Positions 1-21,511 of a stretch of DNA of 21,511 bases are shown piece by piece. Position numbers and translations under genes: made by a program. Below the pieces are notes generated by a model. That model was given only the letters and a program-made list of their open reading frames with translations. It did not search any database and was not told the DNA's origin. Each line of letters begins with the position of its first letter. Position 1 is the stretch's first letter. This stretch comes from a virus, in IMG/VR virus record IMGVR_UViG_3300047355_000123, positions 1 through 21,511 of that record, one strand, 5' to 3'.

Positions 1-127
1 GCTTTATGGCGGGCATCGTCTAGCATTCTTAAAAAATCTTCGTCCATTATGTCGATACCGAGGCCCTCGGAATTGGTGCGGCATTTCTTGCACTTGCAAT
101 CAAATTCCTCGTATCTGAAATATCTTA
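1..127. repeat. Left copy of 127-bp terminal direct repeat (circular contig overlap)
   Basis: Bases 1-127 are identical to bases 21385-21511. The endolysin reading frame runs uninterrupted through the joined ends, so the molecule is circular or circularly permuted with a unit length of 21,384 bp. A length of exactly 127 matches a common maximum k-mer of short-read assemblers, which suggests an assembly overlap and not a biological terminal repeat. Confidence 0.95.
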
Positions 128-247: not shown

Positions 248-447
248 TTTTGGAGCTTTGCAAGCATTAACTCGATTTTGTGGACGGATGCCAATAGTTC
301 TTTCATGTCGCTCTTTATCTCGTTGCTGTCAATTTCAAGCTGGATCACCCTGCTTTTAAGACGCGCCACCGTGCTGTTGAGGTTTACCCATACACCAACC
401 AAACCCGCCGCCACTGGCGCAACCACTGCAACAAATTCCCATTCCAT
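244..447 (-). CDS. Holin-like protein: one membrane helix plus coiled coil
   Basis: The likely 67-residue product has one hydrophobic segment at about residues 5-21 (FVAVVAPVAAGLVGVWV), followed by a long charged helix with heptad-like spacing (residues 25-67) that probably forms a coiled coil. An upstream ATG at 492 exists, but the ATG at 447 overlaps the tail-tip stop as TGATG, a typical coupled start, and places the membrane segment at the N-terminus. Location directly before the endolysin supports a lysis role: timing membrane permeabilisation so that the endolysin reaches the peptidoglycan. A small structural or membrane-anchoring protein is an alternative. Sequence family is not recognised. 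Confidence 0.68.
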   Translation of the reverse strand: MEWEFVAVVAPVAAGLVGVWVNLNSTVARLKSRVIQLEIDSNEIKSDMKELLASVHKIELMLAKLQK

Positions 448-2765
448 CACTTCTCTTTTTTCTGTATTATATACCAATTCGAATTGTGGCACAAGATAGT
501 GACGCCATCATAAGCCCTATTAAAATCGTAGGACGTTGCGCCGTCGATAGTTACGCCTGTGTCGCCTGTATTGGGTCGCAGGCTTACATATTGATTTGCG
601 GCTATTGTGCCATCGCTATGGAATTGAATGCTGCGCCCCTCGTTATCTGCAACCAGCGGCAAATAAATAATGCTTGCACCGTTGCCGCCTTGCCACGTGT
701 TCATGATCATATAGTCAATCGGCCGCACGTTGTACGTTGTGCCTGTTCGATTTGTTACGGTGGCGGTTCTGTACTGCACGCGCGAGCCGTAACTATCCTC
801 ACCAATTAATAACGTCCTGTTCAGCGCATCCGTCGCTCCTGTAACACCTAGGCCGGGATTGTGGGTTATCGGGTCCACCACGTCGATGGCGTCGCCTATG
901 GCCGTCGTAACGGTCGAAGCATCTCGCGCAACTAGAAACGCCTCTAATTCGGTTTCGATGGATCGCGCTGTAAAGGTCAATTGAAATAATGCGAAGTCGC
1001 CGGCTGTGTCGTCCAGCACTTGCCACATCTTTAAATCACTTCCGTACACCGTGCCGCGTTGTATCGGTGTGCTGATCCGCTGGCCTGCTAGTATCTCCTG
1101 CACGCCTAGCCGGTTAATCCCTAACCCTGTACCCGTGTAGTTTAAACTGTGCCACTGCGATACAGGGCCGGACAATCCGCCCCCTATGATTTGTAGTACA
1201 CCGTCAGCGTTCTGCGTTTCTCCGTCACCAAACAAGCAAAGTCCTTGGTCAATCTCAGCGCGTGCCGTGTCGCTGTTGGTAGCTGTAAAAATAACCTCAT
1301 CCCCTAGCGCGTTGTTGCCAAGGAGATCAGCACGCAAAACAACGATTTGAAAATCTGCCGTTGATGTGTTCACTAGCGTGCCATCGAATCCGCCATCATC
1401 ATCAATGCCCACAATGGTCACACTTAAATCCATTCCGGTCTGATCACTTGGCAGCGGTGGCGTATTAATTACAATCGGCATGGTAATTTCACCGCCTTCG
1501 TTCCTGTTGAATACGTAGCTTACGACTTCGTAATATTCCGGCGTCGCCGTCCATTGTGGAGTACTGTAAACGTGCGAAGTGTATTCAAGTACACCCTCAT
1601 CCAACGCGCCGAGTTGAAAATCTAAAGTTGTTTCTGTGAACTGTGCATCCCGTTGCAGGTACTGCGTGCCCACCTTAACAAGAAAGCGAAGCATGACACG
1701 CGCCACAAGGTCATCGCCGGTAGCTACGCCGTCGCCAGCATATGAATAATTAAATGTGCCGGTGATTAAAAATTCGGTGTCCTGCAAGTAGTCTATATCT
1801 GTATCCTCTAGCGTGTTGCCGAATTCGGTTTCGGTGTAAAGGTTGTCGTAGATGAGCGGGTAATTGCCATTGTATTTGCGCGTGCGCCGCACTTCCTTTA
1901 AAGGTGCAAGGCCGCTGTACTGGTATCCGCGTAGCCGTTCCAGTGTTGAATCAAATGCACGCGCTGCGCTATATGTGTCCTGTGTTATATCCGTGCCGTC
2001 TTTTTGCTTGCCTTCTACCGTTAGCGTCGTACTTGCCTGCTGCGCGCCCAATGGTAAGAACCACCAAACGCCTTCGCTTTGAAACAGTCGGGCGTTGAAT
2101 ACCTTGGTAAGGCTTTCGAGTATTTCAAAGGTTGAATAGTATTGATTCACTCCGTTGCTGTCTGGGTTGCCTAGCCCTAAACTTGAAACGCGTGCATCTA
2201 TCAATTGATTGCTACCGGTGTAATCCACCGCGAAAAAGTCGTTCACATAGTACAAAAAATCTTCCGTACTCCATAGATGAGTCGCCCGTGTGCGGTTCAA
2301 ACATTCCAGCAGCATGGTCGGCACATCTAACAAGCCCGTCGAATCGTGCTTAACGTATTGCAAATTACCAAGGTCGTCGGCTGCTGTTAACGTGTTTTGA
2401 ATAGGCTGGTAATCGTATGGCCGTGTGACCTGCTCCGGATACAATACCCCAAACCAGTACGGACTATTTACCCCGTCCGGATCTTTGTACACGCTCACCG
2501 AAAAACGCAGCTCCGGCGTCGTGGTCAGCAGGTCCATGAACGTTGTGTGAATGCTGGTTTCCTCCGTCAGCGTAAAGGTTAATTCACTACCTATGACGCC
2601 CTGCAAACGGTCTTCATTGTTGCCGGTGTATGTCAAAACAAATCCATCTGCACCGAGCTTAAACGTGCCCGCCGTGCCGGTGAAATCTGCATCGTGGATA
2701 TTCAATCGGTAGTCCGTGCCGAGGTCATCGGTAAACTCTGCGTATAGTCGTATTGGATCAGCCAT
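447..2765 (-). CDS. Large tail-tip / distal tail protein with fibre-like C-terminus
   Basis: The 772-residue protein directly follows the tape measure gene with no gap, the position of the distal tail and tip proteins in siphophages. The N-terminal 250 residues resemble the long tip proteins of Bacteroidetes phages, including a segment around residues 215-240 (STFEILESLTKVFNARLF then a WW-rich strand) that I recognise as recurrent but cannot name. The last 70 residues (VTIDGATSYDFN ... GVTILCHNSNWYII) match the beta-strand pattern seen at the C-termini of many tail fibres, usually near the receptor-binding tip. The likely role is to cap the tail tube, organise the baseplate and contact the host. 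No enzymatic motif is evident. Function is inferred from position and C-terminal pattern. Confidence 0.75.
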   Translation of the reverse strand: MADPIRLYAEFTDDLGTDYRLNIHDADFTGTAGTFKLGADGFVLTYTGNNEDRLQGVIGSELTFTLTEETSIHTTFMDLLTTTPELRFSVSVYKDPDGVNSPYWFGVLYPEQVTRPYDYQPIQNTLTAADDLGNLQYVKHDSTGLLDVPTMLLECLNRTRATHLWSTEDFLYYVNDFFAVDYTGSNQLIDARVSSLGLGNPDSNGVNQYYSTFEILESLTKVFNARLFQSEGVWWFLPLGAQQASTTLTVEGKQKDGTDITQDTYSAARAFDSTLERLRGYQYSGLAPLKEVRRTRKYNGNYPLIYDNLYTETEFGNTLEDTDIDYLQDTEFLITGTFNYSYAGDGVATGDDLVARVMLRFLVKVGTQYLQRDAQFTETTLDFQLGALDEGVLEYTSHVYSTPQWTATPEYYEVVSYVFNRNEGGEITMPIVINTPPLPSDQTGMDLSVTIVGIDDDGGFDGTLVNTSTADFQIVVLRADLLGNNALGDEVIFTATNSDTARAEIDQGLCLFGDGETQNADGVLQIIGGGLSGPVSQWHSLNYTGTGLGINRLGVQEILAGQRISTPIQRGTVYGSDLKMWQVLDDTAGDFALFQLTFTARSIETELEAFLVARDASTVTTAIGDAIDVVDPITHNPGLGVTGATDALNRTLLIGEDSYGSRVQYRTATVTNRTGTTYNVRPIDYMIMNTWQGGNGASIIYLPLVADNEGRSIQFHSDGTIAANQYVSLRPNTGDTGVTIDGATSYDFNRAYDGVTILCHNSNWYIIQKKEK

Positions 2766-4730
2766 TTAAAATCCTCTTACTCGGTTTCGGTCGATTGCAT
2801 TGCGCTCACTGGTTAGGAGTATATCTCGGCCTGAAATCTTGCCGGTGACCTGTACGCTTTGCCCGCCCATCATACTCTGCAATTTGTCAAGCGGCGCGAT
2901 TACTTCCGGATTGTGCTGTGCGCCTGAGTACTCACCCACCTGCGCGATGACCGGCCCGCTTACGATGCCACCGCTGGCCATCTGCGGAATGCCAAAGCCG
3001 CCGCCTATAAACTTACCGAGTCCGCCCTTTACTAAACTACTGCCCGGCATAAGCACGGATAGAATAGCAAACTGCGCTATCAGCGAAGCCAGCTGAATCA
3101 ACATCTGCTTAATCATATTACGCATTACCTCTTCAAACGTTGCCGTTCCATCAATGATGCTCCTGAATGTGCTATCGATAAAGTTCGCCATGCTTTGGGC
3201 GATGCTGTTGATTTGGTTCTTAACAAGGTTCGTGCGCTCGATGACCTTATCAATGTCCTCTTCGTCGAGATCGGCATCGTCTATAAATTCGATGTCTTCA
3301 AATTCAAGGTCCGCCTGAACGGTCACGGTTCCCGTTGGTGTTGGTGTTACCGCTGCACCTGCACCGCCGCCGCTAATGGCTGACGGTATTAAATTAGTCA
3401 AGCCGCCCAATGTGCTTAACGCATTGGCTACGCTTTCTTTTGTAACCAACTCCAACGGCTCACGCTCCAGCTCCGTATTGACAGCGGTTGTAAAGTCCTC
3501 GGCTGCCTTTGTACCAAACTCGGCCATGCGATCCGCCGCGTTGGTGAATGCGTTGCTAATGGCGTCGCCTATGTTTGATAGGTCACCGCTCAGAACCGCG
3601 CTAATGATTGTGCCAAGGTCTTGGAATGCACCGATAACCGCATCCACCGCGAACAGGAAGAAATCGAATACAACTTGCACCGTGCCCTTTATGCCGCCAA
3701 TGATACCACGCAAAAGGCTGGACTCATTGTATAGCGTTATAAAGTAATTGATGACGTCGGTAATGTATGGCGCAATCTCATCGGCAAAGGTTACAATCGC
3801 GATACCCAAACCGACGACGGCAGCAATTACCAAACCGATCGGCGAAAGCAATGCCATAAATCCTTGTATCAATGACGGTAGTATAACCAGCAGCGGGCCG
3901 AGTGCGGCCGCGATACCTGCACCGATAACCATGAACCTCTTAACTTCAGGGCTAAGGTTTTGGAAGGTGGCCAGCATATTCTTTAGGCCGTCAATGACCG
4001 GCGGAAGAAATTCCATTATAATCTTACCGAATTCCTCCTGCAAATCGCCAAACGAATTGGCAAGTTGCTTCAGTCCACCCGTGCCCGCCTTCGCTGCTGC
4101 CTCGGCTGATCCGCCGTATTGCTTTTCCAGCTCGTCAAGTATAACCGTTTGCGCCTCGGCCAGTCTGCCGCTTTCGGTCAGGCTTTTAATCACCGCCTTT
4201 TGATCCTCGCTGAACTGGATACCCGACCGGCTCAACGCTGTCAGGTTTGCAATCGGATCGTTCAGCGCTTTACCCAATTGAATGGATGCGCTTTTTAAGT
4301 CGCCATCTAAACGCGTGGCAAGATCTAGCGCCACCTTTTGCGTGCGTGTAAACTGATCGCCGGCGATATTAGTGAACGTCAGCAGCTGCGAAGTTGCATC
4401 CTTTAATATCTCTTCATCCCCGAATATGGTTTTCGTTTGCAAGTCGCTCGCCATCTGCTGCAACTGCTTGGAAGTAAAGCCAACGGTTGCGCCGGTAGAC
4501 TTCAAACCTGCCTCAACCTGTGCAATAGCTTTGGCCTGCTGGTCGAATGCTTTCACCGCTGTAAAGCCTAGCGCCGCGATCGGTGCGGTCAGCCCCATGG
4601 TCATCGACTTGCCAAGCTTCTTGGTGTTCATACCAAAGCGCTGCATCTTTTTCATAGATGAGCCAAGCGCCTTATCAAATTGCTTTGTCTGCGCTCCTAT
4701 CGTTACGATTAAATCGTTCAGCTTTGCCAT
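2766..4730 (-). CDS. Tape measure protein
   Basis: This 654-residue protein sets tail length and is ejected with the DNA. The N-terminal 250 residues are amphipathic and helical, with a typical tape-measure opening (LIVTIGAQTKQFDKAL, then GLTAPIAALG). A strongly hydrophobic block at residues 267-315 is the usual membrane-inserting part. The C-terminal end (GGGFGIPQMASGGIVSGPVI, then an EVIAPLD motif) also matches the family. At about 0.15 nm per residue it predicts a tail near 100 nm. It starts inside the end of the frameshifted chaperone gene (13-bp overlap), exactly where tape measure genes sit. No lysozyme or peptidase domain was seen. Confidence 0.93.
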   Translation of the reverse strand: MAKLNDLIVTIGAQTKQFDKALGSSMKKMQRFGMNTKKLGKSMTMGLTAPIAALGFTAVKAFDQQAKAIAQVEAGLKSTGATVGFTSKQLQQMASDLQTKTIFGDEEILKDATSQLLTFTNIAGDQFTRTQKVALDLATRLDGDLKSASIQLGKALNDPIANLTALSRSGIQFSEDQKAVIKSLTESGRLAEAQTVILDELEKQYGGSAEAAAKAGTGGLKQLANSFGDLQEEFGKIIMEFLPPVIDGLKNMLATFQNLSPEVKRFMVIGAGIAAALGPLLVILPSLIQGFMALLSPIGLVIAAVVGLGIAIVTFADEIAPYITDVINYFITLYNESSLLRGIIGGIKGTVQVVFDFFLFAVDAVIGAFQDLGTIISAVLSGDLSNIGDAISNAFTNAADRMAEFGTKAAEDFTTAVNTELEREPLELVTKESVANALSTLGGLTNLIPSAISGGGAGAAVTPTPTGTVTVQADLEFEDIEFIDDADLDEEDIDKVIERTNLVKNQINSIAQSMANFIDSTFRSIIDGTATFEEVMRNMIKQMLIQLASLIAQFAILSVLMPGSSLVKGGLGKFIGGGFGIPQMASGGIVSGPVIAQVGEYSGAQHNPEVIAPLDKLQSMMGGQSVQVTGKISGRDILLTSERNAIDRNRVRGF

Positions 4731-5340
4731 TGATCTCTTTCTAGTATTCGCTGCCTGAGTTCTTCCTTGTTCAGTTTACCGGCCTTGGCCTTTGGTTTCT
4801 CCCATGGGAATTGCATCAGGTCCTTAGGCTGCAATTTACGCCCTTTTTTTAGGTGGGGTTGCATGATCATTGAACCAAGCCACCGCGTGCGCTCCCACTC
4901 CATACGTTCGCGTATCTCTTCGCTTTCTCTGTTGGCGTCAAGTGCTAGGCTTACCTCGCCGAATGTCATCGACCAAAACGCAGAAGGGGACAGGCGTAAA
5001 ATGCCCATCCCCATCCGTATAATATCCGGCCAGCCAATCGGCTTATCCGTGCCGTCTATGCTTTTTTTTCGCTGCTATATTCGCCGAGTGCGTCAAAGCA
5101 TTGGGTGACGTGTTCCAGCGTTATATGATCTTCGAACGTCATCAGGTCCATTTCAAACTCCTGACCTTCAAAGCTGCATCCACATTCAACACCGACAAAG
5201 CAAAGGAAGGCACAAGCGTCTGCGCTCAGCTTCGACGGATCGGATAGGCTGAACACATTGACTTTTGTTTTACGCTCGAATTTCTTCAGCGCCTTCATGC
5301 TGTACCGCACCGGGTACTCCGTGCCGTTTACTTCGATCAT
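4718..5340 (-). CDS. Tail assembly chaperone, long form made by -1 ribosomal frameshift (gpG-T type)
   Basis: Reading slips back one base at A AAA AAA (5068-5062) near the end of the short chaperone gene. This joins residues 1-93 of the short form to 114 residues encoded down to the stop at 4718, giving about 207 residues. The downstream frame is open from the slip site, has its first ATG only at 5014, and encodes a segment typical of tail assembly chaperone T-parts (LRLSPSAFWSMTFGEVSLAL, then charged helices). Before that ATG the frame already encodes sensible sequence (SIDGTDKPIGWPDIIR), which supports frameshifting over separate initiation. Such G and G-T pairs chaperone the tape measure before tail tube polymerisation. 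The gene lies between the tube and tape measure genes as expected. Confidence 0.86.
5056..5340 (-). CDS. Tail assembly chaperone, short form (gpG type)
   Basis: This 94-residue acidic protein (MIEVNGTEYPVRYSMKALKK at the start) is the zero-frame product upstream of the slippery run. The pattern of a short beta-hairpin followed by M-K-A-L-K-K-F-E-R-K is characteristic of tail assembly chaperones located between the tube and tape measure genes. Translation ends at TAG 5058-5056, two codons after the slip site (GAA AAA AAA GCA TAG). The gene overlaps the tail tube stop by four bases as ATGA. It is expected in large excess over the long form. Confidence 0.87.
   Translation of the reverse strand: MIEVNGTEYPVRYSMKALKKFERKTKVNVFSLSDPSKLSADACAFLCFVGVECGCSFEGQEFEMDLMTFEDHITLEHVTQCFDALGEYSSEKKA
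5062..5068 (-). promoter_or_regulatory. -1 ribosomal frameshift slippery site A AAA AAA
   Basis: On the minus strand a run of eight A residues (5069-5062) holds the heptamer A AAA AAA in the correct phase for -1 slippage (zero frame GAA AAA AAA GCA TAG). The stop codon lies just downstream. A weak candidate stimulatory hairpin follows: AGCC (5043-5040), loop GATT, GGCT (5035-5032), flanked by CGG (5049-5047) and CCG (5029-5027), about 12-18 nt after the slip site. The heptamer is close to the efficient A AAA AAG signal of E. coli dnaX. Confidence 0.85.
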
Positions 5341-5753
5341 GAGGCGACCGTGTCAGTAATTGCACCGGTCAATTCAAAGGTAGCTGAATACGTTGCTGTG
5401 TCTTCTGTGCCGCCTGACTGCTCAAGGCTGGTAATAATTGCGGACGCGCTAAAGGAAAGGTCGCCAGTTACCTCAGTAGCTTTTGAGAATTTCACGGTAA
5501 CGGCTGTGCGTGCCTCCCATGCAGTCCACAAATCCGTTACGTCCTTGTTTGAATCTGCGTCCGTGTAATCAATCAAACCGCTGACGCTGATTGATCCGCT
5601 GCGTACTCCACCGAGCAGCTCACGAAATCCCGCGCTGTCCTTTGTAGTGATGTCGATGGTTTCGACGTTAAGGGAGAGGCTGCAATCGGTTGCCGCTGCG
5701 ATCAACGTGCTATCAATGTAAACGCCTAGTTCTGTACCGTTAAAAATGGCCAT
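5337..5753 (-). CDS. Major tail tube protein
   Basis: This 138-residue protein, almost all beta strand, has the hallmarks of the TP901-1-type tube family: an N-terminal strand pair (GTELGVYIDSTLIAAATDCS), then SLNVETIDITTKDSAGFREL, then GVRSGSISVSGLIDY. The phrase D-I-T-T-K-D-S preceding a W-rich middle and alternating V/S strands is typical. It forms the hexameric rings of the tail tube around the tape measure. It sits directly upstream of the chaperone pair, as in most siphophages, and one base after the stop of a 55-residue gene. Confidence 0.9.
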   Translation of the reverse strand: MAIFNGTELGVYIDSTLIAAATDCSLSLNVETIDITTKDSAGFRELLGGVRSGSISVSGLIDYTDADSNKDVTDLWTAWEARTAVTVKFSKATEVTGDLSFSASAIITSLEQSGGTEDTATYSATFELTGAITDTVAS

Positions 5754-5754
5754 T

Positions 5755-5922
5755 TTATTCTTCTGTTAAATCGTTATTATCTGAGTCTTTCTTTTTCTTT
5801 GGGGCGTCGAGGTATCCCTTTGCTTTTAGTTCTGCGGCAAAGTCAGAAGTAACCGACGGCGTTGCGCCTTTCTTCCAATTGTTACCGCGTAGCTTGCACG
5901 CCTTTTGAATTGTGACCTTCAT
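5755..5922 (-). CDS. Small basic 55-residue protein between tail genes
   Basis: An ATG at 5922-5920 opens 55 codons ending at TAA 5757-5755, one base before the tube gene start. The sequence opens MKVTIQKACKLRGNNWKKG, has the segment DFAAELKAKGYLD, and ends in a mixed basic and acidic tail (KKKKDSDNNDLTEE). The pattern 'G-x-x-W-x-x-G ... A-x-x-L-x-x-x-G' resembles very small proteins often found among phage head-tail genes, but I cannot assign a named family. The tight spacing on both sides (9 bp and 1 bp) supports a real gene. Its role is unknown, possibly a connector or assembly accessory. Confidence 0.7.
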   Translation of the reverse strand: MKVTIQKACKLRGNNWKKGATPSVTSDFAAELKAKGYLDAPKKKKDSDNNDLTEE

Positions 5923-5931
5923 GGGTGCAAG

Positions 5932-6336
5932 TTAATCAATTTCAGGTTGATCCGGAAACCATCCGTTTTCTTCCATGTACTCCTGCGTTCTTATCGTCGT
6001 TGTGCTTGGTACAATATGCCCAAACGGGAACTTTGAATTCACTTGCACGTAACTACTCAGGCTGTACCGCTCATCGTTCGACAGCTCAGGGAAGCAAGCA
6101 ACAAGGCGTTCAAGCGTTGCCGCGGGGCTAACGTGGATGATAAAGTCCGTATCCACTTGCAAGGCGTTCTGCACTCCGTCAGGGTGTACGACAATACCGA
6201 ACACGGCTGAATCTTTCTCCCAATCCGATTGAATGAGAACGGGTCGAGAGATGTTGTACAGCTCGCGCGTGATTTGCTTCGCCCGTGCTTCGCTTGTCTG
6301 CGTGTCCGTTGGTAGGACTATGATATAACCGTTCAT
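5932..6336 (-). CDS. Uncharacterised 134-residue protein in the tail gene cluster
   Basis: The gene overlaps the end of the tail-terminator fusion gene by ATGA (6336-6333) and precedes the 55-residue gene. The protein begins with a hydrophobic strand (MNGYIIVLPTDTQTS), has alternating strand and helix segments, and ends acidic (WFPDQPEID). A C-terminal part rich in F, P and G (SKFPFGHIVPSTTTIRT) may be extended. No catalytic motif, signal peptide or membrane segment is seen. By location it is a tail or neck accessory protein. It could work with the fused adhesin next to it, for example as a chaperone, but that is only inference from adjacency. Confidence 0.75.
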   Translation of the reverse strand: MNGYIIVLPTDTQTSEARAKQITRELYNISRPVLIQSDWEKDSAVFGIVVHPDGVQNALQVDTDFIIHVSPAATLERLVACFPELSNDERYSLSSYVQVNSKFPFGHIVPSTTTIRTQEYMEENGWFPDQPEID

Positions 6337-8387
6337 GAATAGATGTCGTAGAAGGTGTTAATGTTGGACTTAATGTCGGCGCGGCTCGAAATATGCGTTG
6401 ACGCATTCCACAAAATAAATTCTTGATAAACAGCGTTCACAGGATTTGACCCTAGGCGTTTACCAAATTCAAGTCCAGCCGTTACTGCTACCGTCGTAGT
6501 TAAAGCATCCACGTTTTCGGTATTGTCTACGCTGTAAATTTTATTCGTGCCATCGTATGAGAACATCGCTAAAGTTTGCGCCCCACTTGATACGCTTAAA
6601 GCATCATCATTACCTTCCAAGCTAAATCGATAGCTTGTTTGAAAGTTCAATATTTCTAAGCCGTCATTGCTGCTTGCTAAATTCGTGAAGTATCCGAAGC
6701 CGCTGCTTTTCGTTGCGCCTATCAATGATAATTGGAAATTACTACCACAATCCACGGACGATTCCAAAACATCGTCTGTCCCATCTGTTTGTATAGCAGG
6801 CTTACCGTTCTCCAATATTACCCCGTTCGTGCCGTCGTAAATCTTCGGCATTTGCGAGGTCGTGGATTGCGTTGCATCGTTTCCGCTTCCGCTCTGGTCG
6901 TACCAAGTCCGTACAAATCCGTCATTGCTTCCGCAGTGCGTAGCCAGTGCAGTAGTATCTAACTCGTCGTTAGAAAATCCAATGTCCGCGTAGCTGCTCC
7001 CGTTGTAAACTTCTACCGCGTCACCCGTGTAAGCCGTGCGAAGTTTCCGCAAAGAGTAAGCCGCAGCCGCTCCCGTGTACGTGTCCAATAATAAATTGGC
7101 TGCGGTTACTTCCTCCCACGATTGCGCCAAGGTGAACGGAGGCGTGCCATACGTTGCGCCGTCCTCGAATGCGTCAAAAACCGCAACCGTATCCGCGTAA
7201 GCTGTATCGTCTGCAAATGTGTGAATTAAAGTGTAATCGCCTATTACATCGTCGTCACTGATAAAGCCCGTTTTGTGGTAAATCTTTCGAACGATTACTT
7301 TGCCCGCTGCTGGCGTGTCGCTGGAAGGGTCGATAAAAATACCGTCGCCTTCTGACTTGACACTATACCCGCGTTCAAAAGAAACGCTAGGCATTTGCAA
7401 ACCTGTTTCAACCTCATCTTCGAAGCGGTTGGTGTAACTTACCAACGATTTAAATGCGCCCGCTGTAGCGTCGTATATAAGCGCCTGATTGCCTGCCGGC
7501 GTGCCTACTATTGTAACGTCGCTCAAGTCGTTTAAATCCGTAGGTACTGCGCTTGTATCGGCCTTTGCGTTCAATGCTGTTTGTGTTGCCGTGCTTACCG
7601 GCTTATCCGCGTCGCTTGTATTGTCTACGTTGCTAAAGTCTGCGCTGTTCGCCTTGGCGTTTAGCTCTGTTTGCGTGGCTGTACTCACCGGCTTCGCTGC
7701 ATCGCTGGTATTGTCCACGTTGCCCAATCCTACCTCGCTCTTAACGATGCTGTCGTTTGTCCATTCGCTGCCGTCGTACTTCAGTACGTCTCCCGTTTCC
7801 GGTCCGCCCTGTCCGAATTGTACGTCCGTCAATTGCCCCAACTGCGTCACGCCGCCCGCGTCGTCTGCCGGTTGCCATTCCTGTACGGATGCATCGTAGG
7901 CAAGTACCTGCCCGTCTGTTACACCTGTTACGTCAACATCGTACAGGTCGCCAATCTTTGCACCCGTCACCGGTGTGCCTTGCGCTATGGTAAAGTTGTC
8001 GCGCTTGATCCGAAATGTAAACGTAAGCACCTGAGCAAATCGCCGGGGCGCGTCGATCGTGTCAATGTCCACGTCATTGAATTGGATGCTCTCCACGTTC
8101 ACGCCGTTGTATGTGCCGCTAACGCGATCCAATGCACCGCGCACTTTGTCGCCGAGATCAGCAGCCAGTGCATACGTATCGGCATAGCAAAGGAATTCAA
8201 ACCGTACTTCGTCGAGCTTACTCGGCCCGTCGTGCGTGTCTTCAGGCGCTACGCTTTGCAGCTGGTAAACGATGAACGGCGTTGCGGTTTCCTGCTCGGC
8301 TACCTCCGGGAATACGTTCACCCCAACGATGTCGGTGACGTCTGTGTTTTGCGTCAGTATTACGTACGCGGCTATTCCTGCATTCAT
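6333..8387 (-). CDS. Tail terminator (DUF3168-like) fused to tail-fibre repeats and an arabinofuranosidase/lectin-like domain
   Basis: This 684-residue protein has three parts. Residues 1-130 look like a tail completion/terminator protein (DUF3168 type: VFPEVAEQETATPFIVYQLQ, later RRFAQVLTFTFRIKR). Residues 140-320 are fibre-like, with LTDV and LSDV phrases plus two 30-residue repeats containing VDNTSDAAKPVSTATQ. Residues about 430-684 carry an arabinofuranosidase-B-catalytic/LamG-like jelly-roll signature (AYSLRKLRTAYTGDAVEV, then FVRTWYDQSGSGNDATQ, then NGKPAIQTDGTDD). The terminator domain normally caps the tail tube at the neck as a ring. The fused part looks like an adhesin. The gene overlaps its neighbours by 4 bp on both sides and shows no internal break. 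Usual DUF3168 proteins are about 120-150 residues, so this one is about five times longer. Confidence 0.82.
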   Translation of the reverse strand: MNAGIAAYVILTQNTDVTDIVGVNVFPEVAEQETATPFIVYQLQSVAPEDTHDGPSKLDEVRFEFLCYADTYALAADLGDKVRGALDRVSGTYNGVNVESIQFNDVDIDTIDAPRRFAQVLTFTFRIKRDNFTIAQGTPVTGAKIGDLYDVDVTGVTDGQVLAYDASVQEWQPADDAGGVTQLGQLTDVQFGQGGPETGDVLKYDGSEWTNDSIVKSEVGLGNVDNTSDAAKPVSTATQTELNAKANSADFSNVDNTSDADKPVSTATQTALNAKADTSAVPTDLNDLSDVTIVGTPAGNQALIYDATAGAFKSLVSYTNRFEDEVETGLQMPSVSFERGYSVKSEGDGIFIDPSSDTPAAGKVIVRKIYHKTGFISDDDVIGDYTLIHTFADDTAYADTVAVFDAFEDGATYGTPPFTLAQSWEEVTAANLLLDTYTGAAAAYSLRKLRTAYTGDAVEVYNGSSYADIGFSNDELDTTALATHCGSNDGFVRTWYDQSGSGNDATQSTTSQMPKIYDGTNGVILENGKPAIQTDGTDDVLESSVDCGSNFQLSLIGATKSSGFGYFTNLASSNDGLEILNFQTSYRFSLEGNDDALSVSSGAQTLAMFSYDGTNKIYSVDNTENVDALTTTVAVTAGLEFGKRLGSNPVNAVYQEFILWNASTHISSRADIKSNINTFYDIYS
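7557..7721 (-). repeat. Two 90-bp coding repeats in the fused tail-terminator/fibre gene
   Basis: Residues 223-252 and 253-277 of the fusion protein are two copies of a 30-residue unit sharing NVDNTSDA-x-KPVSTATQT-x-LNAKA. The DNA repeats with a period of 90 bp and is diverged at third positions, so the repeat is old. This unit is widespread in phage tail fibres, where it commonly forms part of a trimeric shaft. Confidence 0.85.
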
Positions 8388-8905
8388 TTCTTTCCTTTGT
8401 TTCGTGCGACTTTGTCAATCTGAAATTTATACTTCTTACGCATCTTCTCAAACGCCTCGCCGCGCTTGTTTGCAATCGACCGACCGAATACGCCTTTGTT
8501 GCGGTTGTTGCCTTTTATATACTGATCATCACCTTCTACGATGTTGGCGAACCATCCATCGCTATCTTCTGACACTTTTCTACCGACACGCGGCCCAACC
8601 CAATAAGTACTTTTTTGCTTATCAATAAGCCAAACCTTAACAGATCGCCGTAATGTGCCGGGCAAAATGTCAAAAGGTTTCTGATTAGTACGACGAACGC
8701 GAATAGTTTCCTTTGCGTCAACAATGTTGTTCAACATCTCATCCTTGTAAATCTTACCGACTGCGCGATGGATTCGCTTTTGTATTTTCGGATCGGTAAC
8801 CTGTTTACGCAGCTGCTCGAATTGTTTTAGTAGCGGCTTAATGTCTGCGCCGATTCCTTCAAAGCCAACCTTACCGCCTTTCTGCTCAAGTGATCCCTGT
8901 GCCAT
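8384..8905 (-). CDS. HK97 gp10-like head-tail / tail completion protein
   Basis: The 173-residue basic protein lies between the head-closure gene and the tail-terminator fusion, the normal place of HK97 gp10-like proteins. It has an N-terminal helix (ADIKPLLKQFEQLRKQV), a central motif with TLRRSVKVWLIDKQKSTYWVGP, which is the typical 'L-R-x-S-x-x-V' followed by a strand and 'VGP', and a lysine-rich C-terminus. These proteins act at the joining of head and tail. The start overlaps the head-closure stop by 20 bp and the stop overlaps the next start by ATGA. Confidence 0.83.
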   Translation of the reverse strand: MAQGSLEQKGGKVGFEGIGADIKPLLKQFEQLRKQVTDPKIQKRIHRAVGKIYKDEMLNNIVDAKETIRVRRTNQKPFDILPGTLRRSVKVWLIDKQKSTYWVGPRVGRKVSEDSDGWFANIVEGDDQYIKGNNRNKGVFGRSIANKRGEAFEKMRKKYKFQIDKVARNKGKK

Positions 8906-9236
8906 GTGTTCCGGTTATTTCGCAAAGCAAGATAAGCTGGTCATTGCGCCCAACTTCCTCGATGCCTTGAATGGTGTACGTGTTGCTGTTGTAGATAACG
9001 CGGTCCGCTGGATTGATTGCCCGCGTGTCCGTGCTGCTGCGGATTTTAAACCGTAGCCGCTGGACGGGTGTATCTTGATCGCCCGTTATTTTTTCCGCCA
9101 TACCTTCGCCGGCCTTCATCAGTTCAGCCCATACGGTTACGAGCGTAGCCCATGCCGGTACGCGCTCACCGAATGCGTTGGTACTGGTCGTGTAGTTCTG
9201 CACCTCTATACGCCGGTCGCTTTGTCCTATTCTCAT
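8886..9236 (-). CDS. Head closure / head-tail joining protein
   Basis: The likely 116-residue product starts MRIGQSDRRIEVQNY and continues with N-A-F-G-E-R-V-P-A-W and V-W-A-E-L-M-K-A, the standard pattern of the phage head-tail joining family (SPP1 gp16-like). Near the C-terminus the pattern 'NPADRVIYNSNTYTIQGIEE' is also typical. The ATG at 9236 shares ATGA with the connector stop. An upstream ATG at 9353 would add 39 unrelated residues inside the connector gene and is rejected. The protein plugs the portal-connector channel after packaging and forms the docking surface for the tail. Confidence 0.88.
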   Translation of the reverse strand: MRIGQSDRRIEVQNYTTSTNAFGERVPAWATLVTVWAELMKAGEGMAEKITGDQDTPVQRLRFKIRSSTDTRAINPADRVIYNSNTYTIQGIEEVGRNDQLILLCEITGTHGTGIT

Positions 9237-9799
9237 ACTGAAGTAATAACGCGGTACGGATTCAAAATAGAATAAAGGCCGAGCGGTAACGTGGTGGCAA
9301 TTGTACCCGTCACAACCGGCTGGCGCTGCTCGTATAGGTGCGCCACCATCCAACGGATTGCGGTAATCATCGGCTTTGGAATTGTGGCCTCTGAATAACC
9401 GACGTTCATATTCACCTGCACCGCGTTAAATGTATCGTCATAAAGATCAGGCACGCTGTCGAATGTGATCCGCGCGGCTTTGGTTTTTATATCGGCCCAC
9501 CACTTCGCTGTTGCCAGCGTCTGCGTGCTGTTGGCTGTGTCCTTGTACTGCACCGAGGTAATGGAGTTCACCGGGCCAATGGGTAAACGGACGTTATAAA
9601 AATAATCGATATACCCCACGGCGGTAACGTCACCCATGCGCGTATTGCAATAGTCTTCAATCCACGCAATCGATGCATCCCGGTACGCTTCTATTAGTGT
9701 ATCCTCGTCGGTGTGATCCACTCTCAAATGCTCTTTAAGTTGCGCCACGGTTATAATGCTATCGAGGTCGGGCGTGCCTGTTATTTCTACGGTCATCAT
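9233..9799 (-). CDS. Head-tail connector protein (gp6/gp15-like)
   Basis: The likely 188-residue protein opens MMTVEITGTPDLDSIITVAQ and then has 'LKEHLRVDHTDEDTLIEAYR' followed by A-S-I-A-W-I-E-D-Y-C-N, the signature helices of the phage connector family. These proteins form a ring under the portal. I chose the ATG at 9799 because the upstream alternative at 9862 begins inside the terminator stem-loop and would add an unrelated G/F-rich stretch. The gene starts only 18 bp past the T-tract of that terminator, so its mRNA must come from terminator read-through unless a promoter is hidden there. Confidence 0.87.
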   Translation of the reverse strand: MMTVEITGTPDLDSIITVAQLKEHLRVDHTDEDTLIEAYRDASIAWIEDYCNTRMGDVTAVGYIDYFYNVRLPIGPVNSITSVQYKDTANSTQTLATAKWWADIKTKAARITFDSVPDLYDDTFNAVQVNMNVGYSEATIPKPMITAIRWMVAHLYEQRQPVVTGTIATTLPLGLYSILNPYRVITSV

Positions 9800-9816
9800 G
9801 TCGCTAAAATACGGAC

Positions 9817-9845
9817 AAAAAAAAGAGGGGCCGAAGCCCCCCTTT
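9817..9845 (-). terminator. Strong intrinsic terminator after the capsid gene (CUUCGG loop)
   Basis: On the minus strand GGGGGGC (9842-9836), loop TTCG (9835-9832), GCCCCTC (9831-9825) forms a seven-pair stem with one G-U pair, extended by AAA/TTT, followed by eight T residues (9824-9817). The C(UUCG)G loop is an exceptionally stable tetraloop. It lies between the capsid stop (9868) and the connector start (9799), so it should reduce transcription of the minor head and tail genes relative to capsid. Confidence 0.9.
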
Positions 9846-9867
9846 CCAAACAAATAACCCAACCAAA

Positions 9868-11769
9868 TTATCCATTCAAGTGGTTCGCCAAAGAAAGCGC
9901 ACCCGGCTGTCGCAAATCGAAGTCGAAGAAACGGTTCACGTGCAATGCAATCTGTGCAGTGCCTGCATCGCTGTACGGGTCAACAAGCAAATCGATGCCA
10001 CCAAAGTAGGCAAGGATAGCACCCTGTGCGAAGTTTCCGAAAATCATTGAACCTGCTGCGGCTGTTGTGCCATCGTTCAAAAATCCGTCAACCAAGTAAG
10101 GAGTCGCGACTGCGTTGTACATATTGAACTGGCCGTTGTCCCACAAAGGTGTAACGCCTGAAACCTGTGCCAAAACCTTTGAAAGGCCGTAAGCACCGGG
10201 CGACATTACGTAGTTTGCGCCGGCAAGGTTTGCACCTGCTGCAAGTGCATCCTCTTCCATCTGGTTCACGATTGCAGTAGTTAACGCTGTGTCAGTTACG
10301 CTTGACTGATTCACGGCAGTAGATGCGCAAATAGTGTCAAAAGCATAATCGTCTACGTAGGCGTTCATGGCTGCGGCCAACTCGTTAGCAATCAAAGCGT
10401 CAACCTCTGCACCGCCCTGCAAAACAAGTTGCTTGCTGTACTTGGTGTTAGCTGCAACACGCTGTGGCGACAAGCTCAACTCATCCATTTCCATGGTAGA
10501 AGCTGCATCGGCTGAAACTTCTGTTTCACCTGTTCCGACTGCTTTGTTGCTCACACGTGGAAACTGAAGGTTTCCGGTAGCGTTTCGAATCACTGTCGTG
10601 CCAAGTCCTTCGACTACGGTAGGCGCGCGCAGTGCTTCAATCGCAGCAGGTACAACAGTAGGAACAAATCCTGAACCGTCGCCGCTTCCTGCTTGGAAGT
10701 CGTCAGCAGCTCCAGCACGCAACGCGATGGAAGGAATTGCAATTTGTCCGGCCATCTGCAAGCCTTGGCTTCGTGCTTCCTTGCTGGCTTCACTTGCCCA
10801 CTCTGCTTCTGCACCTTCCAAGTTTCGACCGTTTGCAACTGCAGCGACTGCACGGCTTAAGCTGAAAGAACTATTCACGCGCTCAACTTCGCGCTGCTCG
10901 GATGCGCCAGCTGTACCGCTCTGCGCCATTCGTGCAACCATATCCTGTTCGCGTGTTTTGTGCTTAATCTTAACGTCCAAGTCCTGCATCATGCCGTCGA
11001 GCTTGTCGCATCGCTCTTGTTCTGCTTCTGTCATAACGCGGCCTTCTGAGTCCGCCTTTTGGCCAATGGCTACGAATTCCTCGTAGTTAGCATTGCGTTG
11101 GCCTTTCAAATCGTTTAAAGTCATCTTAGTAATATTTTGCGTAAAGTTACGCGGTTCTGTTTTTATCGCTTCAGGTTCTGCACGCTTCTCCGCTACGGGT
11201 TCCGCTGCTACCTGTTCTTCTTTCAATTCCTCCACTTCCTGCGCCGCCGCTGCCATGTTACGCGCGTATACTGATGCCGTCGGGCTTGCTGGGTATGTAA
11301 CCGCCGACGTATCCAATAGTTTGCCCACCTTGGTAATTGTTCGCGTGCTGCGGTCCTCGCTCCATTCGTCCGCCTCGATTGTAAAGGCAAACGAGCTTTG
11401 TGATATATCGCCGCGCTTAATGAGCTTGTACAAATCGCGCCCGTCCTGCGTGTCGGCAAGTGCCGCGCGATACTTCAAACCCTGATCGTCAACGCTCAAC
11501 TCTAACGTGCCGTTGGTCGTTCGTGCCAATGGTGCGCCGGTATGGTTAAGCAAAAACCGAACGTCGTCTTCCATGACGTTATCAAACGCTCCGCGTGCAA
11601 CGGTTTCTTTGAAGTAACCTAAATCGTACTCTACTTCGAAGTTACTGGCATAGCCTTCCACTACTAACGAGTCATCGCCAGCGGCCCGCACTTCTGCCGT
11701 GCGCAGTTCTACGTTTTCACCGTATTGGCTGCGCAGTTCTTCCGTGCGCTTATCTTCTTTATTCTCCAT
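9868..11769 (-). CDS. Prohead protease fused to HK97-fold major capsid protein
   Basis: The 633-residue fusion has an N-terminal HK97-type prohead serine protease (about residues 25-180, with LVVEGYAS and RGAFDNV phrases, histidine in FLLNHTGAPLART near residue 76, and serine in SQSSFAF near 125). An A/E/K-rich linker follows, then a capsid protein from about residue 216 (MTLNDLKGQRNANYEEF, a coiled-coil delta-like region, then the main fold ending FFDFDLRQPGALSLANHLNG). In separate-gene phages the capsid protein starts at just this MTL-type methionine, here ATG 11124. The fused start ATG 11769 overlaps the portal stop by 11 bp. An upstream ATG at 11823 adds unrelated residues. Protease-capsid fusions are known in other phages. 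The protease presumably cleaves itself off during maturation. Confidence 0.93.
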   Translation of the reverse strand: MENKEDKRTEELRSQYGENVELRTAEVRAAGDDSLVVEGYASNFEVEYDLGYFKETVARGAFDNVMEDDVRFLLNHTGAPLARTTNGTLELSVDDQGLKYRAALADTQDGRDLYKLIKRGDISQSSFAFTIEADEWSEDRSTRTITKVGKLLDTSAVTYPASPTASVYARNMAAAAQEVEELKEEQVAAEPVAEKRAEPEAIKTEPRNFTQNITKMTLNDLKGQRNANYEEFVAIGQKADSEGRVMTEAEQERCDKLDGMMQDLDVKIKHKTREQDMVARMAQSGTAGASEQREVERVNSSFSLSRAVAAVANGRNLEGAEAEWASEASKEARSQGLQMAGQIAIPSIALRAGAADDFQAGSGDGSGFVPTVVPAAIEALRAPTVVEGLGTTVIRNATGNLQFPRVSNKAVGTGETEVSADAASTMEMDELSLSPQRVAANTKYSKQLVLQGGAEVDALIANELAAAMNAYVDDYAFDTICASTAVNQSSVTDTALTTAIVNQMEEDALAAGANLAGANYVMSPGAYGLSKVLAQVSGVTPLWDNGQFNMYNAVATPYLVDGFLNDGTTAAAGSMIFGNFAQGAILAYFGGIDLLVDPYSDAGTAQIALHVNRFFDFDLRQPGALSLANHLNG

Positions 11770-12961
11770 TGTTCTGTGTTTCTGAAACTTTATCGGAATA
11801 AGCGCCAAGCCTATCCAGTGCAATTTGATTCACGGGGACGCTGTGGGTATCCCCTCCGTCCGTTGGGTTTAGTTCTTCCTTGCCTCTGACTTCGTTAATA
11901 CTTAGCACGCCATTATTCAACATCTTCGTATAGAAGTCTGCGCGGCTTTGCATATCGCCCCGGTACAAATCGTTGAGATTAAACTTGCTGTATATCTGTG
12001 GACGCTCCCGTGACTGGATTAACTTCCTGTCAATCTCCTGCTCGATGCGTTTCGCCCAAGGTGCAATGGTGTGCCGTGCGAATTGTAAGTTCTGCTGTTC
12101 GACGTTGTTGTAAGTCGTTTGGCTTTCAAGCTGTACCAATGTAGGGGGCACGCTAAAAATGCGGCATATCTCTTCAGCCTGAAATTTGCGCGTTTCGATA
12201 AATTGCGCCTCGTCGGGGCTGATGCTAATCCGCGAATATTTAAACCCAAACGGCAGCAGCTTCGTGCCAGCCTGTTGTGCGGCCTTGTTCCAACTGCCCT
12301 GAATTATATCCATCTGCTCCTTTTTCAAAGGCTGGTCGCTGGATAATATCCCCGTCATTTGTCCGCCGCTACCAAAGTACTCAGCGCCGAAATCCTCGGC
12401 GGCTTTTGCGAGTCCTAAATTCTCACGGTGCAAACGGATCGGCGACTTCCTTTGTAGGTTGCAAATCTCCAGCATATTCTCCGGCTGCACGATGCCCACG
12501 TTTCGCACGCTGTAAACGATTTGCCCGTTCACGTTCTTCCGGTCTACGTCGTAAATATCAACGCAGGTCAAACTAGTAACGTACCCACGGCCATCGCGCT
12601 CAATCAGTGCATACCCTACGCCGTTAATAACTGCATTGCTGATAACCGTTTCCCAAAAGTCGAATGCCGTTTGGTATTCGTTGGGCTTGTATTTGATAAC
12701 GTCATAAGCCGGATGAACGTTCGCCGGTTCTATCTCTCGGCCGATGCGTTCGTACACCTCTAAGTCAAGGCTCGCCAAGGTGCTGGCTATCTTGTACACG
12801 CAGGCGTAAACCGTCGAGATCGTGAGCGCCGTATTCTCGTTTATGTTCGCACCGCTCACCGTAGTGCCGTAGATGCCTAGGTCGTTCGCCAAGGTCTGTG
12901 AATCGTACTTGCCTACGCGATACCTCAAAAGCGCGTTTAATCTGTCGCGAAGTGTTGCCAT
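11759..12961 (-). CDS. Portal protein (HK97 family)
   Basis: The 400-residue protein is a portal of the HK97/phi-PVL group. Supporting segments are NTALTISTVYACVYKIASTL near residue 45, YKPNEYQTAFDFWETVISNA near residue 92, and RKFQAEEICRIFSVPPTLVQ near residue 262. The C-terminal phrase VLSINEVRGKEELNPTDGGD is also very typical. It forms the dodecameric ring through which DNA is packaged and ejected. It lies directly between the large terminase and the protease-capsid gene in standard order. Length is normal for the family. Confidence 0.96.
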   Translation of the reverse strand: MATLRDRLNALLRYRVGKYDSQTLANDLGIYGTTVSGANINENTALTISTVYACVYKIASTLASLDLEVYERIGREIEPANVHPAYDVIKYKPNEYQTAFDFWETVISNAVINGVGYALIERDGRGYVTSLTCVDIYDVDRKNVNGQIVYSVRNVGIVQPENMLEICNLQRKSPIRLHRENLGLAKAAEDFGAEYFGSGGQMTGILSSDQPLKKEQMDIIQGSWNKAAQQAGTKLLPFGFKYSRISISPDEAQFIETRKFQAEEICRIFSVPPTLVQLESQTTYNNVEQQNLQFARHTIAPWAKRIEQEIDRKLIQSRERPQIYSKFNLNDLYRGDMQSRADFYTKMLNNGVLSINEVRGKEELNPTDGGDTHSVPVNQIALDRLGAYSDKVSETQNNGE

Positions 12962-16320: not shown

Positions 16321-17024
16321 TTTTGCGCTTGTTTCTGTCGTTCGTCCATCTCCTGCCGCTCTGTGTACGTTAAGCGGTCTTCTCCTGCCATCCAATCGGC
16401 TGGATGCACCCTTGATGCCACCGGGTTAATTTGAGTGGCGTATTCGGGCTGTAAATGCCTCATTGCTTCCTGCTGCATTCGCTCGGCGTCTTTGCGTTCG
16501 TTCTCGCGGATCGTCTGAATAACCGGCTGCTTCAGTTGGTCGTATTTGGTAAAGCAATCGACAAACTGCGCCAATTTCAACCGCTCGTAATACGGCCCAA
16601 AGCTTTCTTTGGCCATCATATACAGGCAAAGTCGCCAATCTTCAAGCGTGAAGGCCGGGAACTGCTGTACAAGCTCGTTCACGGTTAGCGCAATGTGCGC
16701 CGGCTCGTTTAGTGTCTTATTTGCGTCTATGAAGTCCACGCAACGGCTGATCATACCGACCAGCGCCGCCCGTGTAGCGCTTTCGTTGACTTTAAGCGCC
16801 GTTTTCACGTTTGTGCCTTCAAAGCACGCCGCCACTGTCAGGCGCGATACGTCCAGTTCGTGCAAATTCTGCAAGCTGTTCGCGGTTGACGTCTGTTTTA
16901 AGGTTTGCCGCTCTGCTGGAGTTAGTTCTGCCGCCTGCGCGCTGTTTAAAAACAAGGCCTTTGTATCCGTTTGCGATACTTCTGTGGATCGCTTCGATTG
17001 CGTCGGTTTGGTTGGTGTACTCAT
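16317..17024 (-). CDS. Possible replication accessory (loader-like) protein; N-terminus overlaps the initiator gene
   Basis: As drawn, the protein has 235 residues. Its first 69 residues (T/S/Q-rich, low complexity) lie inside the end of the initiator gene in another frame. The remainder is helical, with a segment around residues 125-160 (FTLEDWRLCLYMMAKESFGP, then YYERL) that recalls a recurrent Bacteroidetes phage and plasmid family with 'G-x-x-Y-x-R' and a nearby helix. A GTG codon at 16808-16806, ten bases after the initiator stop, could start a 163-residue version with no overlap. Position immediately after the initiator is where lambda has its helicase loader gene P, so a loader role is conceivable, but no sequence signature proves it. 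Confidence 0.7.
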   Translation of the reverse strand: MSTPTKPTQSKRSTEVSQTDTKALFLNSAQAAELTPAERQTLKQTSTANSLQNLHELDVSRLTVAACFEGTNVKTALKVNESATRAALVGMISRCVDFIDANKTLNEPAHIALTVNELVQQFPAFTLEDWRLCLYMMAKESFGPYYERLKLAQFVDCFTKYDQLKQPVIQTIRENERKDAERMQQEAMRHLQPEYATQINPVASRVHPADWMAGEDRLTYTERQEMDERQKQAQK

Positions 17025-17535
17025 TTTGGAGTTGAATTAGTGCCCTTTGTTCACTTTTGGGCGATTTGTACGTAAAACGGTGGTCTGTTTTCTTGTACTC
17101 CAACCACTCAGACCATGCGGCCGTGAAGGCTTCTGTCTGCCATGGAAGTACTATCGAAAATTTTTTCCCCTTGTTTTGTAGTGTTTTAGTAATTTGTTTA
17201 GTAAGTTGATTAGTACGTGTCCGTTTGCGCCCACCCCCCTGTCCGTTAGCACCCACCCCCCTGTCCGTTTGCGCCCACCCTAAAGTCCGTTTGTGCCCAC
17301 CCTGTCCGTTTGCAACCACCCCCCTATTGAGGTGGCCGCTTTGGATCAGTCTGTAAATAATCTTTCGGGTACGGTCTTCGCTGATACCGAGCGCCTCGGC
17401 TAGTTTGGCGTTCGTCATAAAACACGCCTTTCCATTTTCCGCGAAGCTGGCAACCTCAGCCAATAGGACGCGATCCATGGGCGCAAGGTCCAGCGTCCAA
17501 ATCTCCAGCGGTATCCATATGCCTTTACGATCCAT
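16819..17535 (-). CDS. Replication initiator, winged-helix / DnaD-like replisome organizer, containing the origin
   Basis: The 238-residue protein has an N-terminal winged helix typical of phage replisome organizers (GIWIPLEIWTLDLAPMDRVL, CFMTNAKLAEALGISEDRTR, then IIYRLIQSGHLNRG, residues 6-71). Residues 71-106 are a low-complexity G/R/T/Q region encoded by iterons. Residues 130-198 form a DnaD-like domain (W-S-E-W-L-E-Y-K-K, KSPKSEQRALIQLQNEYTNQ, AIEAIHRSIANGYKGLVF). Such proteins bind repeats in their own gene, melt adjacent AT-rich DNA and recruit the host helicase. The layout of N-terminal DNA-binding domain, internal origin and C-terminal partner domain parallels lambda O, although the family differs. 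Confidence 0.85.
   Translation of the reverse strand: MDRKGIWIPLEIWTLDLAPMDRVLLAEVASFAENGKACFMTNAKLAEALGISEDRTRKIIYRLIQSGHLNRGVVANGQGGHKRTLGWAQTDRGVGANGQGGGRKRTRTNQLTKQITKTLQNKGKKFSIVLPWQTEAFTAAWSEWLEYKKTDHRFTYKSPKSEQRALIQLQNEYTNQTDAIEAIHRSIANGYKGLVFKQRAGGRTNSSRAANLKTDVNREQLAEFARTGRIAPDSGGVL
17155..17218. other. AT-rich stretch next to the iterons (candidate DNA unwinding element)
   Basis: Bases 17161-17220 are about 72% A+T by direct count, in a window where most coding DNA is close to balanced. On the plus strand it is a T/G-rich run (GTAGTGTTTTAGTAATTTG and similar) directly abutting iteron 1. It still codes for residues about 106-127 of the initiator (NQLTKQITKTLQNKGKKF). Iterons followed by an AT-rich tract inside the initiator gene is the lambda-type origin arrangement. 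Confidence 0.7.
17219..17325. repeat. Five tandem origin iterons inside the initiator gene
   Basis: On the plus strand five units begin GTCCGTT at 17219, 17241, 17263, 17285 and 17304, with the core GTCCGTTTGCGCCCACC. Units 1, 2, 3 and 5 are 22 bp and unit 4 is 19 bp. Since 22 is not a multiple of 3, successive copies are read in different frames, producing unlike peptides (GVGANGQ, GGRKRTR, GWAQTD) from nearly identical DNA. Selection therefore appears to act on the DNA, as expected for initiator binding sites. Spacing near two helical turns puts the copies on the same DNA face. Confidence 0.85.
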
Positions 17536-21142: not shown

Positions 21143-21511
21143 ATAACCAAACTACGTCGGCATCCTTCGCCGGGTGGTCATCCACGTGCAGGAAATCCCG
21201 ATGCACGCCAATGCGATTAAATCCAGCCTCGTATAACGCGCCAAGTATATACCCGCGTGTCCTGCTGTCTGTGCAAACAATATCAACCGCCAAGCCGTCA
21301 AGGTGGGCGCTGTCTTTTTTCCCTCCGCTTGCCCTATTATTTGCCGCACAGCGTACCCCACTGCTCACATGAAAAGCAACGCCCGCTTTATGGCGGGCAT
21401 CGTCTAGCATTCTTAAAAAATCTTCGTCCATTATGTCGATACCGAGGCCCTCGGAATTGGTGCGGCATTTCTTGCACTTGCAATCAAATTCCTCGTATCT
21501 GAAATATCTTA
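21135..21511 (-). CDS. Endolysin, M15-type peptidase, C-terminal part (5' end continues at 1-134)
   Basis: This part holds the catalytic region of the 127-residue endolysin and lacks only the first few codons at the window edge. Motifs are SSGVRCAANNRASGG (a variant of the SGYR...HN..GG pattern), SAHLDGLAVDI with zinc ligands His72 and Asp79, and FLHVDD with His111, in full-length numbering. It ends ADVVWLYD, a common end for the M15_3 group. The enzyme probably cleaves peptidoglycan cross-links or stem peptides. There is no signal peptide, so export depends on the holin-like proteins upstream. It overlaps the metallophosphoesterase start by 8 bp. Confidence 0.92.
   Translation of the reverse strand, partial: RYFRYEEFDCKCKKCRTNSEGLGIDIMDEDFLRMLDDARHKAGVAFHVSSGVRCAANNRASGGKKDSAHLDGLAVDIVCTDSRTRGYILGALYEAGFNRIGVHRDFLHVDDHPAKDADVVWLYD
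21385..21511. repeat. Right copy of 127-bp terminal direct repeat
   Basis: Identical to 1-127. It should be counted only once in the circular genome, and the duplicated endolysin codons within it are not a second gene. Confidence 0.95.

Follow-up and report, generated by a model that had tools for sequence, protein, structure and literature searches.

Can the protein that terminates a phage tail also carry an adhesin and, if so, where on the virion would the adhesin stand? The question is raised by a single gene for a 684-aa protein, here called FUS, within the window, by which we mean the whole stretch of viral DNA analyzed, 21,511 nucleotides in length. A first-pass annotation of this DNA had described the product as a DUF3168-like tail terminator continuous with fibre repeats and an arabinofuranosidase-like C-terminal domain, and had proposed that copies of it might project from the neck as whiskers. 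The features on which the argument depends are collected in Table 1.

Table 1. Positions, strands and supporting evidence for the features of the window discussed in the text.
Feature	Position	Strand	Evidence or remark
Head-tail adaptor Ad1	9233..9862	(-)	phrog_442/phrog_40, PF05135
Head closure protein Hc1	8886..9353	(-)	PF05521 E 4.8e-15, phrog_25
Neck protein (HK97 gp10 / Neck1-like)	8384..8905	(-)	via homologue L038:7447-8004, phrog_5 'tail completion or Neck1' E 2.6e-6
FUS, tail terminator + fibre stalk + linker + lectin-like domain	6333..8387	(-)	684 aa
Tail terminator domain, FUS residues 1-135	7983..8387	(-)	PF11367 E 2.4e-9, phrog_347 E 3.4e-15, fold 6tba_4A Z 16.2
Fibre stalk with tail-fibre repeats, FUS residues 136-320	7428..7982	(-)	phrog_5207, phrog_35419 and others at 213-250
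Stalk repeat 1, VDNTSDAAKPVSTATQ, FUS residues 224-239	7671..7718	(-)	sequence
Stalk repeat 2, VDNTSDADKPVSTATQ, FUS residues 254-269	7581..7628	(-)	sequence
Conserved linker ('bridge') travelling with lectin, FUS residues 321-430	7098..7427	(-)	
Concanavalin/GH54-like jellyroll, presumed sugar-binding head, FUS residues 431-684	6336..7097	(-)	GH54 profile E 6e-9, fold Z 21.6
Hypervariable lectin half, FUS residues 521-684	6336..6827	(-)	median identity 31%
g5932, obligate companion of lectin cassette	5932..6336	(-)	134 aa; linkage
Major tail tube protein	5337..5753	(-)	PF06199 E 6.9e-17, phrog_1407
Tape measure protein	2766..4730	(-)	phrog_27166 E 2.4e-68
Tail-tip protein TT447, without lectin in window	447..2765	(-)	772 aa; tip assignment from position after tape measure

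FUS in the terminator slot of a small siphophage genome

An exact 127-bp direct repeat is present at the two ends of the window (1-127 and 21385-21511), which makes it probable that the record is a complete genome, 21,384 bp long. For a siphophage this is a very small size; the contigs of several relatives measure 22-25 kb. The protease and the major capsid protein are encoded by one fused gene (9868-11823) that overlaps the portal gene, and a tandem repeat of about four ~22-bp units (17218-17302), which could be an origin, lies within a replication-initiation-like gene (16819-17535). A Pirellulaceae host was considered on the strength of one GTDB contig from a Pirellulaceae MAG, but this contig looks like one from a phage and no host was assigned.

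The ATG of FUS overlaps the stop codon of the neck gene upstream, and its coordinates and strand agree with the first-pass annotation. Among the matches listed, the order adaptor, head closure, neck, FUS, g5932, tail tube, two small genes, tape measure and tip is constant across about 70 loci. The type 1 neck set is complete and in order (phrog_442/40, phrog_25, phrog_5, phrog_347); the phrog_5 member is recognized through the homologue in L038, the window's own neck gene giving no match in Pfam or PHROG. The stretch separating the tail tube gene from g5932 contains a 55-aa ORF (5755-5922, MKVTIQKACKLRGNNWKKG...), and L077, L099 and L286 have ORFs that resemble it. TT447 is the sole large gene found between the tape measure and the lysis genes, and this single protein may form the whole tail tip.

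The identification of the N-terminal domain draws on domain searches and on structure prediction, which agree. PF11367 matches residues 10-127 with 37.8 bits (E 2.4e-9) against a curated Pfam cut-off of 24.5 bits, and four PHROG families of tail terminators (347, 123, 176 and 78) match residues 13-132, phrog_347 with E 3.4e-15. In the AlphaFold2 model, where the block pLDDT for residues 1-130 is mostly 62-90 with one block at 50, residues 1-129 align by VIA-align with the tail terminator of RcGTA (6tba_4A) over 126 residues at 2.4 A (Z 16.2), and with neck or terminator chains of Bxb1, phiXacJX1, Mu and T5 (Z 13.5-15). The terminator fold that had been proposed for residues 1-130 is thus upheld. 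The same slot holds a 130-aa standalone homologue in the sister phage L291 (best match phrog_347, E 9e-18). Bacuni_F1, a cultured phage of Bacteroides, has a 'putative tail completion protein' in this slot, some 130 aa long and 34% identical to residues 24-127. FUS resembles the standalone siphophage terminators and tail completion proteins (PF11367, phrog_347; RcGTA g8, T5 p142, Bacuni_F1) in profile, fold and slot, and its N-terminal domain is of similar length. Of the standalone proteins used for comparison, most have about 115-175 aa and no fibre, whereas FUS adds a stalk and lectin of about 550 aa on the same chain. Some terminators are known to be larger and to possess extra domains, for instance for contact with a sheath (PMC11784142).

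The first-pass annotation had pointed out that its reading would fall if another gene in the cluster encoded the real terminator. Pfam and PHROG scans of the larger ORFs of this probably complete genome found no second one; some of the small ORFs have no family match of any kind. FUS is the tail terminator, and the only one found in this record. The adjacent gene g5932 was considered for the part and rejected: it tracks the lectin and not the terminator, moves with the lectin to the tail tip in two contigs (L091 and L146) and does not follow the plain terminator in L291.

Profiles and the predicted fold also bear out the claim that a single 684-aa ORF joins this terminator to fibre repeats and a GH54-like domain. 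The fibre repeat had been reported to occur twice; both copies are present, but they are near-identical rather than identical (VDNTSDAAKPVSTATQ and VDNTSDADKPVSTATQ). The repeats are common to many phage tail-fibre families in PHROG.

The fusion might have been an artefact of assembly. Relatives on viral contigs were taken from the best 80 of 99 matches to the whole of FUS and the best 80 of 261 matches to its terminator domain, and the counts given here and below are of these listed matches. They include at least 69 non-redundant complete proteins with the FUS terminator domain, from independent contigs, and 68 of the 69 are 398-1201 aa long; the short exception (L163) matches to residue 170 and then reaches a stop near the end of its contig. 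Identity runs across the junction at up to 96% in L041 (residues 1-317) and at 92% over residues 1-378 in L028, and a terminator that is only 43% identical, in the Pirellulaceae-binned contig, is fused too. Because the fusion recurs in at least 69 complete proteins from independent contigs, an assembly join is ruled out; the search suggested by the first-pass annotation, for the same fusion at the same gene position in metagenomic phages, thus finds it. No cultured phage with the fusion was found: none of 50,697 phage records carries it over 80% of its length.

A variable head, its companion gene and their several carriers

Among the matches listed, the lectin is present in 58 of the 69 complete proteins with the FUS terminator and absent from 11, most of which bear a different fibre C-terminus. 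By this comparison of sequences the head is swappable. The number of lectin domains per chain also varies, with one in the window and two or three in some relatives. Twenty-one relatives have a terminator that matches the window's at 90% identity or more. Among them the terminator has a median identity of 97%, while the last lectin domain has one of 81% in its first 90 residues and of 31% in the ~165 residues that follow. This last lectin half is, on these values, hypervariable and apparently fast-evolving; within the window, no template/variable repeat pair of a diversity-generating retroelement was found. In relatives with terminators only about 42% identical, the stalk and linker are mostly 79-97% identical. 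Because terminator and lectin diverge while stalk and linker stay similar, FUS is a mosaic that has undergone exchange to either side of the stalk.

The head does not travel alone. Among the matches listed, g5932 lies within 1.2 kb downstream in 73 of 73 lectin-bearing fusions and in 0 of 26 fusions without lectin, with no discordant case. It has no family match in Pfam, PHROG or NCBIfam, and its structural model is poor (pLDDT 48) and not usable. The gene occurs in two sequence types, about 60% identical, and its link with the lectin cassette holds strictly in each of two phage lineages. It is probably a dedicated chaperone or partner subunit of the lectin head.

Lectin and g5932, usually with the linker, are found behind several unrelated N-termini. 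A second N-terminal family (MITFNNIVERF...) comprises at least 42 complete proteins among the matches listed, 29 with lectin, and occurs with the same stalk, lectin and g5932 in L062 (6446-6895), L101, L104, L109 and L142. In L147 and L148 a MITF-like domain has a gene of its own, apart from that of the lectin; these standalone forms are 148-151 aa long (L147:630-1076 and L148:1222-1677). This domain is possibly another connector protein serving as anchor. We suspected a divergent terminator, and no match was obtained by profile-profile comparison, Pfam, PHROG, NCBIfam or PDB sequence search. The cassette is also found on collagen-like fibres (L092, L102) and on another N-terminus (L129), and in L139 and L209 the lectin is a separate gene immediately behind the terminator-fibre gene. 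phrog_10356 matches the FUS lectin and, at another part of the profile, the head-closure protein of the window; this double match hints at a head-closure/lectin fusion elsewhere, and no such fusion was found among cultured phages.

The tail-tip protein, which has no lectin in the window, carries the same head in two relatives. One, in L091 (2529-6047), bears linker and lectin, and the other, in L146 (2316-5552), bears the lectin; in both, g5932 lies directly behind. L291 lacks the lectin and has a plain terminator; its tip and the L091 tip share 96% identity along 772 residues. As judged from these genes the lectin can be placed at the neck or at the tip, the L091 and L146 contigs being too short to include their own terminators.

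Activity of the head and placement of FUS on the virion

A GH54 AbfB profile matches residues 447-516 (E 6e-9), and residues 435-680 of the model, a monomer that is good at residues 440-540 and low in pLDDT in the stalk, align by VIA-align with a GH54 arabinofuranosidase over 239 residues at 2.7 A and 14% identity (Z 21.6) and with the Pan3 tailspike (Z 15.7). Many other rows in the list are concanavalin-like domains, including clostridial and trypanosomal ones, which we take to indicate a common fold only. The arabinofuranosidase-like character assigned earlier to the C-terminus therefore stands for the fold, and for FUS relatives, which match Pfam ArabFuran-catal (PF09206) at E 6e-22 to 2e-27, but the window protein itself falls below the Pfam threshold. 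With a GH54 catalytic domain as its closest relative in both fold and sequence, the head might be an active arabinofuranosidase-like glycosidase that trims capsule from the neck instead of a lectin. We think this improbable, because the PF09206 similarity spans only positions 11-87 of 315, the first quarter of the profile, and the half beyond the match is the hypervariable one, in which E656 is the only invariant acidic residue, unlike a conserved active site. Residues 431-684 are presumed to be sugar-binding, as their modelled fold predicts.

Two other rivals concern the fate of the protein. FUS might be cleaved during or after assembly, or lose its fibre, so that only the ring stays or a released fibre docks elsewhere. 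The separate lectin genes of L139 and L209 indicate that head and stalk need not form one continuous chain, but we hold this course of events to be unlikely: fused lengths are kept in all but one of the 69 relatives listed, the stalk and linker are 92% and 86% identical in close pairs, and FUS contains no internal start with a convincing ribosome-binding site, only GAGG/AGGA before GTG224. Alternatively, the terminator-like domain might have moved to the tail tip as a fibre anchor, leaving another protein to terminate the tail. The terminator and distal-tail rings of RcGTA do have a common tube-like fold (PMC7296036), and L091 and L146 demonstrate that lectin and g5932 occur on tip proteins. 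Against this, FUS remains in the terminator slot, sister phages (L291, Bacuni_F1) have a plain homologue in that slot, and the larger ORFs of this probably complete genome yielded no other terminator. Further, the lectin is on the tip in none of the 16 non-redundant loci, among the matches listed, that have a lectin-bearing terminator and a complete tip gene. We give this alternative very little credence.

Neck whiskers, as first proposed, are the best-supported placement, because residues 1-130 have a terminator fold, no rival terminator was found and an assembly artefact is excluded; the slot, the standalone homologues and the recurrence of the fusion are in keeping with it. We consider it likely that FUS, as the phage's only terminator with a C-terminal adhesin, projects from the neck as whiskers with an accessory glycan-binding role. 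Siphophage and RcGTA terminators form hexameric rings atop the tail tube (PMC7296036, PMC11784142, PMC10276861). As in those particles, residues 1-130 would form a ring that caps the tube and docks the head, and six copies are expected, since the known rings have six subunits. The stalk, linker and concanavalin-like head would continue on the same, intact chain and project outwards, giving six lectin heads on the window phage and as many as 18 on its relatives. It is plausible that the C-terminus extends outwards, because in Milano and in R-type pyocin a C-terminal arm of the terminator extends to the outer sheath (PMC10491603). By analogy with the neck passage structure of lactococcal phages, which binds host cells weakly through carbohydrate-binding modules (PMC6669499), and with the head fibres of RcGTA, which bind capsule (PMC7296036), the whiskers would bind capsule, mucus or surface glycans in a weak, reversible and multivalent manner and so help adsorption. 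The separate tip protein would carry out irreversible binding and ejection, and g5932 would act as chaperone or partner of the head. Whiskers are probably present at the neck, besides a binding tip, in the window phage and in dozens of marine relatives.

Several considerations weigh against neck whiskers. C-terminal fusions to a terminator may not be tolerated automatically: in T5 a C-terminal tag resulted in aberrant fibres, and folding of the tag into the lumen was suggested (PMC11784142). To judge from the genes of L091 and L146, with the same cassette on the tail tip, the head is not neck-specific. A hexameric ring bearing trimeric fibres would require a 6-to-2x3 arrangement, and the stalk is modelled at low confidence. 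Sugar binding by the FUS head is predicted from its fold.

Known neck fibres and the wider meaning of the fusion

The whiskers of the neck passage structure in lactococcal 936 and P335 phages have variable sugar-binding modules (PMC6669499, PMC10747895). Like the whiskers predicted for FUS, they are long, have variable ends of sugar-binding type and are encoded among structural genes. They are built from a protein of their own, which has a BppU-like domain at its N-terminus and forms a ring around the adaptor or portal, whereas FUS has a terminator as its anchor and GH54-like heads. FUS shares with them a C-terminal module of carbohydrate-binding type, as judged by fold (concanavalin/GH54-like, Z 21.6), and not the BppU-like anchor, its N-terminus being a PF11367 terminator by profile and by fold. 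T4 wac fibritin, the collar spikes of XM1 and the fibres of Anabaena phage A-1(L) arise from the head-tail junction, as proposed for FUS (PMC10966104, PMC10491603), but they are separate fibre proteins on collar or neck rings (pentadecameric gp5 in A-1(L)), and none is described there as continuous with a terminator. The CBM-decorated major tail proteins and Dit of 936 phages and the RcGTA head fibres are, like FUS, cases of structural proteins that display accessory glycan binders (PMC6669499, PMC7296036); the carrier is the tube, Dit or a capsid vertex in those cases and the terminator in FUS. The suggestion that the architecture is undescribed must therefore be divided. Neck whiskers tipped with sugar-binding modules are known, whereas in the open-access literature we found no description of a neck fibre fused to the terminator, and the terminator as covalent anchor is, provisionally and relative to that literature, new.

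Taking the carriers together, we lean, by a narrow margin, towards a more general reading in which the terminator serves small marine siphophages as a covalent whisker anchor of general use. The head (linker, one to three hypervariable lectins and companion gene) would then be a mobile cassette, exchanged by lineages among neck, tip and further anchors, and the same receptor-binding module could be fitted to either end of the tail. The tail terminator is normally regarded as a purely structural cap; if this reading is true, it becomes receptor-facing in a common group of environmental phages. Predictions of host range made from the tail tip only would then miss a fast-evolving adhesin among the head-tail connector genes, and the companion gene, together with exchange between neck and tip, would make it possible to test whether it matters where on the virion an adhesin stands.
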